41,977 bases of DNA. Source: Petrachloros mirabilis ULC683 (GTDB lineage: Bacteria > Cyanobacteriota > Cyanobacteriia > Thermosynechococcales > Thermosynechococcaceae). The stretch covers positions 1 to 41,977 of the forward strand of contig NZ_WVIC01000037.1 in the NCBI RefSeq assembly GCF_009939295.1, written 5' to 3'. Positions 33,236-34,586 of the stretch are shown here, piece after piece. The position numbers and the translations under genes were made by a program. Numbering within the stretch: the stretch's first letter is position 1; each line of letters begins with the position of its first letter. Below the pieces are notes generated by a model. It ran no database searches. It was not told where the DNA came from and was given only the letters and a program-made list of their open reading frames with translations.

Positions 33236-33484
33236 TCAAGTGGGGATTAGTTCCCCAGGGCGTAAGCGAGACCACTTCCCCATATCAGCCGTGAAACTGC
33301 TACAGCCAACGACATCCCACTCCATTTGAATTTCTTCTCCTTGGGTGCGAACGTTCACATTAATCGTCGGCTCCAGGGGTTCAAAGCGAGGATCTAGGGT
33401 CAAGTGGGGCTGCTGATGCTGGCCTTCAACAGCATGGTAGGTCGTGCATTGATCCACGTAGTGGCAATTGACGCAGATACACAT
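33236..33484 (-). CDS. ycf34: Ycf34 family iron-sulfur protein
   Basis: An 82-residue soluble protein with the family opening MCICVNCHYVDQCTTYHAVE. Cysteines 4, 7 and 13 and a later Cys in VVGCSSF are candidates for cluster ligands. Ycf34 of cyanobacteria and plastids has been reported to bind an Fe-S cluster and to influence photosynthetic electron transport. ATG at 33484, only 23 bp from the convergent RHH gene. Confidence 0.9.
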   Translation of the reverse strand: MCICVNCHYVDQCTTYHAVEGQHQQPHLTLDPRFEPLEPTINVNVRTQGEEIQMEWDVVGCSSFTADMGKWSRLRPGELIPT

Positions 33485-33891: not shown

Positions 33892-34095
33892 TTAGCTGGC
33901 AGAGCGATTAAAGAGAGAATTTAAGTAAACGCGGGCAGCACGGCGATCGCAATTCCCGTTTTGCAGCAGAAACAGCGAAAGAGCCGCAGCAAAGACCCGA
34001 TCTTGATCCCAGTCAGGGTGAGACTCTAGATAGCTTTTTAGGGTTTCGTGCAGGTCTTCGGGAATCTCGGCCAAAATGCTGATAGTTGCGTTCAT
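33892..34095 (-). CDS. DUF2811 protein
   Basis: A 67-residue protein with the cyanobacterial DUF2811 pattern: NATISILAEIPEDLHETLKS, then SHPDWDQDRVFAAALSLFL, resembling a small helical fold. Function unknown. ATG 34095 fits homologue starts; the longer frame to 34125 does not. Confidence 0.8.
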   Translation of the reverse strand: MNATISILAEIPEDLHETLKSYLESHPDWDQDRVFAAALSLFLLQNGNCDRRAARVYLNSLFNRSAS

Positions 34096-34586
34096 GCCTT
34101 CTTGACTCGTATGACGGGTTTGCAACAGTTGTTACCTTCCTGATGAATTGAGAGGACACCAAAAACTCGCCCTCAGCGATCTTTGAGTTGGGCTCATCTC
34201 CAAAGCGATGAACCTAGCTAGCGCGATCGCGAGTGCTCGGTTAACGTGGGTCGCACCATTGTGCGCTATGGGGGGGGAGGGTTGTCAATGGGTGAGAAGT
34301 GACAAGATTTTTAATAATTTCTGTTGACGGCCACGAATTTACTAGCTTTGAGTCCTCTATAATTTAACTTACTTTACAAAAAACGAGGCAATTCTCATTT
34401 TTGAGCATAATCCCCAGAATAGGAGCAAGTGCCCATAAACCCGTCATTGACCTGTGGAAAACATCCATGAATCTGTGGAAAACTTTTTCGCGGCTGTGGA
34501 AAACCTGTGGAAAACCCTGGAGCCATGCTCGAAAAATAAATTTTGATTTCTCCGTTTTAAGCGTCAGCATTTGGTGACGCATCAGG
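34096..34586. other. intergenic region with phased DnaA-box cluster (oriC or DnaA locus candidate)
   Basis: Four perfect TGTGGAAAA boxes (minus-strand TTTTCCACA, the DnaA-box form reported for cyanobacteria) start at 34453, 34474, 34495 and 34506. All are in the same orientation with spacings of 21, 21 and 11 bp. About 100 bp upstream is a very AT-rich stretch (about 34357-34386), and there is another near 34306-34322; either could be an unwinding element. A HIP1 site is at about 34223. No protein gene fits. The region ends at the HpnA-like gene. Confidence 0.7.

Follow-up and report, generated by a model that had tools for sequence, protein, structure and literature searches.

The window examined here, 41,977 nucleotides from Petrachloros mirabilis ULC683, carries four copies of TGTGGAAAA at positions 34453-34461, 34474-34482, 34495-34503 and 34506-34514. 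Read on the minus strand, these are four exact copies of TTTTCCACA, which has been described as the DnaA box of S. elongatus, Anabaena 7120 and Cyanothece 51142 (PMC4674748), arranged head to tail (34453..34514) in the orientation of the neighboring DUF2811 gene. Their start-to-start spacings are 21, 21 and 11 bp, or 11/21/21 bp in the direction of that gene. Five exact boxes were observed in the window against 0.58 expected, a number reached in 0 of 100 dinucleotide shuffles, and in 300 versions of the window simulated by Markov models (orders 1-3) two or more same-strand boxes never fell within 62 bp. A preliminary description of this DNA had reported four identical single-strand boxes at these spacings, in the form of the S. 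elongatus DnaA box and beside an AT-rich stretch. All of this was borne out: the cluster stands far above chance, the box form is the one reported for S. elongatus (PMC4674748), and the 147 bp adjoining the array (34306-34452) are 63% A+T compared with 48% across the window. A structured RNA at the array was considered and rejected, since Rfam gave no match there; the sole match in the window is a tRNA elsewhere.

The genes named earlier as neighbors are also present, namely DUF2811 (PF10929, E 3e-30) and an NAD-dependent epimerase-type (HpnA-like) gene, and dnaX lies approximately 3.3 kb from the array, close to the distance first given. The DUF2811 gene (33892..34095, minus strand; PF10929, E 2e-30 for the annotated feature) encodes 67 amino acids from a conserved ATG at 34095. 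This start was set by homologues beginning MNAT or MNTT; the listed open reading frame begins at an upstream TTG, 34125. On its downstream side, DUF2811 is adjoined by Ycf34 (PF10718), a conserved plastid-type hypothetical gene at 33236-33484 (minus strand). Among the relatives checked, the HpnA-like gene neighbors the array in its own genome only.

Several further elements, all on the minus strand, lie between the array and DUF2811. Just past the array, CTGGGGATT (34409..34417) is conserved in most family representatives of an anchored alignment and reads as an inverted weak variant of the DnaA box; it may act as a box. An AT-rich motif with a consensus of about TTTTGTAAAGtAAtGTAACAAAA (34361..34383) follows between the array and a promoter-like element and is kept in relatives that lack dnaA. 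The promoter-like element, CATTGACAACCC..CCCCC..ATAGCGCACAATGrTGCGACC (34245..34290), was matched by nhmmer upstream of DUF2811 in 45 loci. It comprises a −35-like TTGACA (34283-34288), a 19-bp spacer and a −10-like CACAAT (34258-34263), the latter overlain by an inverted repeat, CGCAC-AATG-GTGCG (34252-34265). Promoter function is predicted, and we regard the element as putative because the 19-bp spacer and the −10 are weak. The anchored alignment also shows an upstream AT-rich TTCTTAT stretch, more weak boxes and a GTAAAG..GTAACAAAA motif.

The architecture and phasing of the array and its linkage to DUF2811 recur far beyond this genome. A search of relatives with a 501-bp region returned two separate conserved pieces with similar spacing. 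Among the loci found by that search, those without DUF2811 were two-strand, origin-type box clusters, and all others had DUF2811 downstream. We then retrieved 80 DUF2811 upstream regions from sampled genomes, oriented by gene strand. At least one box in the forward (DUF2811) orientation was present in 78 of the 80, so that species-type boxes are conserved upstream of this gene beyond chance, as expected of a DnaA-regulated promoter. Forward boxes in these loci numbered 165 against 5.4 expected, with only 17 in reverse, and 49 of the 80 contained a pair 20-22 bp apart, where about none would be expected. The commonest spacings were 21 bp (40 times) and 22 bp (16), along with 11 bp (7) and 33 bp (4). 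In another collection, 80 named loci were examined and 77 of them have boxes, one being from a Gloeobacterales genome; contig ends truncate two of the three that lack them. Boxes also precede DUF2811 in 34 of 36 further loci from genomes with dnaA. Between the end of the last box and TTGACA there are 172-176 bp in 40 of the 55 loci scored, which span many families, and approximately 165 bp in the window. There are exceptions: most members of the Nostocaceae-like family f32 keep one consensus box, and G420 and G345 have dnaA and DUF2811 and no consensus box. Judged by these comparisons, the box array is one component of an ancient conserved intergenic module beside DUF2811 that reaches Gloeobacterales.

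Of 291 Cyanobacteriia genomes sampled, 286 have DUF2811 itself; among 14 control genomes only S. elongatus has it. A monomer model of the 67-residue protein contains three helices; with a mean pLDDT of 61, this low-confidence model gave no useful fold match. Profile comparison with a hand-written ribbon-helix-helix (RHH)-like sequence detected no similarity. An RHH fold, a candidate for this protein, gained no support from these comparisons but may still apply. No DUF2811 relatives were found in phage records or viral contigs, and a phage link was rejected. Many genomes contain multiple DUF2811 matches (2-5), and in G197 a separate DnaA-box array and GTAACAAAA motif accompany the second copy (L348:2024-2766). 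A literature search, with most subscription papers outside its reach, returned none naming DUF2811 or PF10929 and none giving DUF2811 expression.

The distribution of DUF2811 largely follows that of dnaA (PF08299), which was found in 284 of 291 genomes of the class. In the order of G161, 64 of 391 genomes lack dnaA, 49 of them among the 340 of good quality; this set was partly inferred by absence from the list of positives, and the total of 64 agrees. Among the 49, DUF2811 is intact in 7, a pseudogene in 2 (G450, G567) and absent in 40. By group, family f36 has DUF2811 in 0 of 13 dnaA-less genomes, 33 further dnaA-less genomes yielded 7 matches (2 of them broken), the f35 genomes G161 and G297 have an intact DUF2811, and G154 has none. 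By comparison, good-quality genomes with dnaA have DUF2811 in 255 of 257 cases in the class sample and 36 of 37 in the same-order sample. For the class table, p is about 1e-41 by Fisher's test, a value far too strong given the relatedness of the genomes, which are non-independent data points, and several dnaA-less lineages have reduced genomes. The losses are spread over roughly twelve families or genera (f31, f32, f34, f35, f36, f43, f48, f52, f53, f60), and both states occur within genus g146, where G340 has dnaA, DUF2811 and boxes and G321 has neither gene. The 7 dnaA-less genomes with intact DUF2811 imply either that DUF2811 can function without DnaA or that the loss is recent. Three dnaA-less genomes (G468, G525 and G587, the last counted among the 7) keep boxes; all are incomplete drafts, so dnaA may merely be missing from the assembly. 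On these counts, a lineage that loses dnaA appears usually to lose the array or DUF2811 as well.

The dnaA-less cyanobacteria discussed in PMC7198777 are symbionts and a single free-living clade. Family f36 would fit the Cyanobacterium/Geminocystis clade, which that paper gives as lacking dnaA. The 49 good-quality dnaA-less genomes in the order of G161 span more lineages (f43, f48, f53, f60 and parts of f32 and f34) than that paper discusses.

Family f35 separates the array from the gene. DUF2811 is kept in 9 of 9 f35 genomes. All six members with dnaA have boxes, one to three each, with the last box 174-175 bp from TTGACA, compared with none of the three dnaA-less members (Fisher p 0.012). 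In these three, TTGACAA..CCCCC..GACGACAATAGAGCGAC and the GTAACAAAA motif still align well, and the TGTAACAAAA motif stays. One of them, G295, is only 85% complete, which makes its lack of dnaA less certain. Because the boxes were lost while the promoter-like part was kept, the boxes follow dnaA in evolution and the promoter-like part does not. Such dependence of the boxes on dnaA is expected of a DnaA-regulated promoter. Genomes of other families vary in this respect: no boxes are present in G529 and G325, and a single one remains in each of G458 and G488.

Taken together, these observations make it reasonably probable that the array serves as the DnaA-binding site within a conserved region that regulates DUF2811, whose product would work in the DnaA pathway. 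The head-to-tail boxes share one helical face, on which DnaA is predicted to assemble cooperatively. Bound there, at a near-fixed distance upstream of the promoter-like element, it could tune DUF2811 transcription according to its level or nucleotide state. Approximately 165-175 bp separate the array from the −35-like hexamer downstream, a long reach for DnaA to touch RNA polymerase directly, and this speaks against a regulatory role; action on the promoter would probably involve DNA looping. Activation by DnaA is only slightly favored over repression, owing to the weak −10 and the 19-bp spacer. The promoter-like element and the gene persist in dnaA-less genomes, so DUF2811 probably has basal expression in the absence of DnaA. 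The 67-residue protein may in turn feed into DnaA-dependent initiation, for example as feedback; we place it in the DnaA pathway because its gene is usually lost together with dnaA.

The array might instead be a cyanobacterial counterpart of datA or DARS that acts on DnaA through titration, ATP hydrolysis or nucleotide exchange, with its adjacency to DUF2811 fortuitous and gene control secondary or absent. Like E. coli datA, DARS1 and DARS2, which control DnaA activity, it is a short non-coding locus with several DnaA boxes away from oriC; it combines tandem boxes with other conserved motifs, it depends on dnaA in evolution, and similarly laid-out arrays occur at non-conserved places in several genomes. 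The E. coli loci, the only datA/DARS systems compared, work with IHF and/or Fis, and what defines them is a change in the nucleotide state of DnaA (PMC4585315, PMC8682772), whereas the array described here is always attached to a promoter-like element and one gene. Constant class-wide linkage to a single gene is unlike a position-free DnaA sink, the distance to the promoter-like element is fixed in the orientation of DUF2811, and DUF2811 is itself lost with dnaA. We therefore consider this explanation unlikely, though deserving of some weight. The extra arrays, each of three exact boxes 20-21 bp apart, were seen near guaA-like, glgA-like and sigma-factor-like genes in G173, G376, G027, G040, G276, G047 and G160 (L336-L342) and are possibly movable DnaA sinks.

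It is very improbable that a factor other than DnaA uses the TTTTCCACA repeats and that they match the DnaA box incidentally. Binding of DnaA at the DUF2811 array is a prediction, which leaves room for such a factor, but the boxes are gone from the three dnaA-less f35 members while adjacent motifs stay, and across the order of G161 the presence of DUF2811 varies with that of dnaA.

The preliminary description had offered the cluster as a candidate replication origin or a DnaA reservoir and, failing an origin, as a possible titration or regulatory site. In keeping with an origin, the boxes adjoin an AT-rich stretch (63% A+T), the module is conserved class-wide, and cyanobacterial origins sometimes lie away from dnaA. 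Like the cyanobacterial oriC at dnaN (S. elongatus, Anabaena 7120, Cyanothece 51142; PMC4674748), the array has the TTTTCCACA box and AT-rich surroundings; unlike it, the array is one-directional, phased and linked to DUF2811, away from dnaN and the skew switch. The host genome (4.12 Mb, 79 contigs) contains 44 exact boxes, and its densest group, nine on both strands, lies at G000:C23:33075-34680 (L091:7076-8681). Seven of the nine fall within approximately 360 bp before the start of dnaN (identified by PF00712), and two form an inverted pair just past the gene. This is the probable oriC of the genome, as oriC stands next to dnaN in most cyanobacteria (PMC4674748; for S. elongatus also PMC7198777). 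The array adjoins neither dnaN, on contig C23, nor dnaA, on C18; the window is on C55. In the complete genomes compared, the DUF2811 locus is never beside dnaN, and the distance between them varies widely. With the host genome in 79 contigs, GC skew was sampled in an S. elongatus-type relative, G052, as 20 stretches of 20 kb. Between 0.27 and 1.49 Mb the skew there is mostly negative, and at 1.62 Mb, the position of dnaN, it is positive; DUF2811, at 0.77 Mb, sits within the negative arm rather than at the switch. The origin of PCC 7002 has been mapped near dnaA, at position 1 (PMC7198777). On the strength of the dnaN box cluster, the skew and the chromosomal position, we reject the array as a chromosomal origin, or an alternative or ancestral one, as scarcely credible; the other part of the earlier claim, a putative DnaA regulatory site, is favored by the class-wide DUF2811 linkage and the co-loss with dnaA. 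Two-strand DnaA-box clusters directly downstream of dnaA, not at dnaN, were seen at L343:1535-1868 (G040) and L344:1566-1744 (G009), where the origin may lie in these genomes.

Regulation of DUF2811 by DnaA would have a parallel in B. subtilis, where DnaA is described as a transcription factor at eight intergenic regions outside the origin (Ishikawa et al., 2007, as cited in PMC7198777). As at those sites, an intergenic box cluster outside oriC lies upstream of a gene. Here, by contrast, the target is a cyanobacterial DUF that is usually lost with dnaA, and the array-promoter geometry is near-constant class-wide. DnaA-controlled promoters and datA/DARS are known kinds of element; no description of a class-wide array tied to one gene co-lost with dnaA was found in the literature searched, and within the same reach 'DnaA regulon' was never paired with cyanobacteria.

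Little is known of DnaA regulation in cyanobacteria, and the DUF2811 array offers a specific candidate target. The function of DnaA is unclear in species that replicate without it, such as Synechocystis 6803, Nostoc 7120 and PCC 7002 (PMC7198777). The array persists in genomes resembling such DnaA-independent replicators (f32 and f37, judged by genome layout). More tentatively, and with real doubt, DUF2811 may be a cyanobacteria-specific regulator of DnaA-dependent initiation, in a feedback loop through a box array that predates the divergence of Gloeobacterales, and the locus could be a main remaining DnaA target where replication no longer needs DnaA. The association with dnaA provides a first functional lead for DUF2811, a near-universal cyanobacterial protein without a known role.
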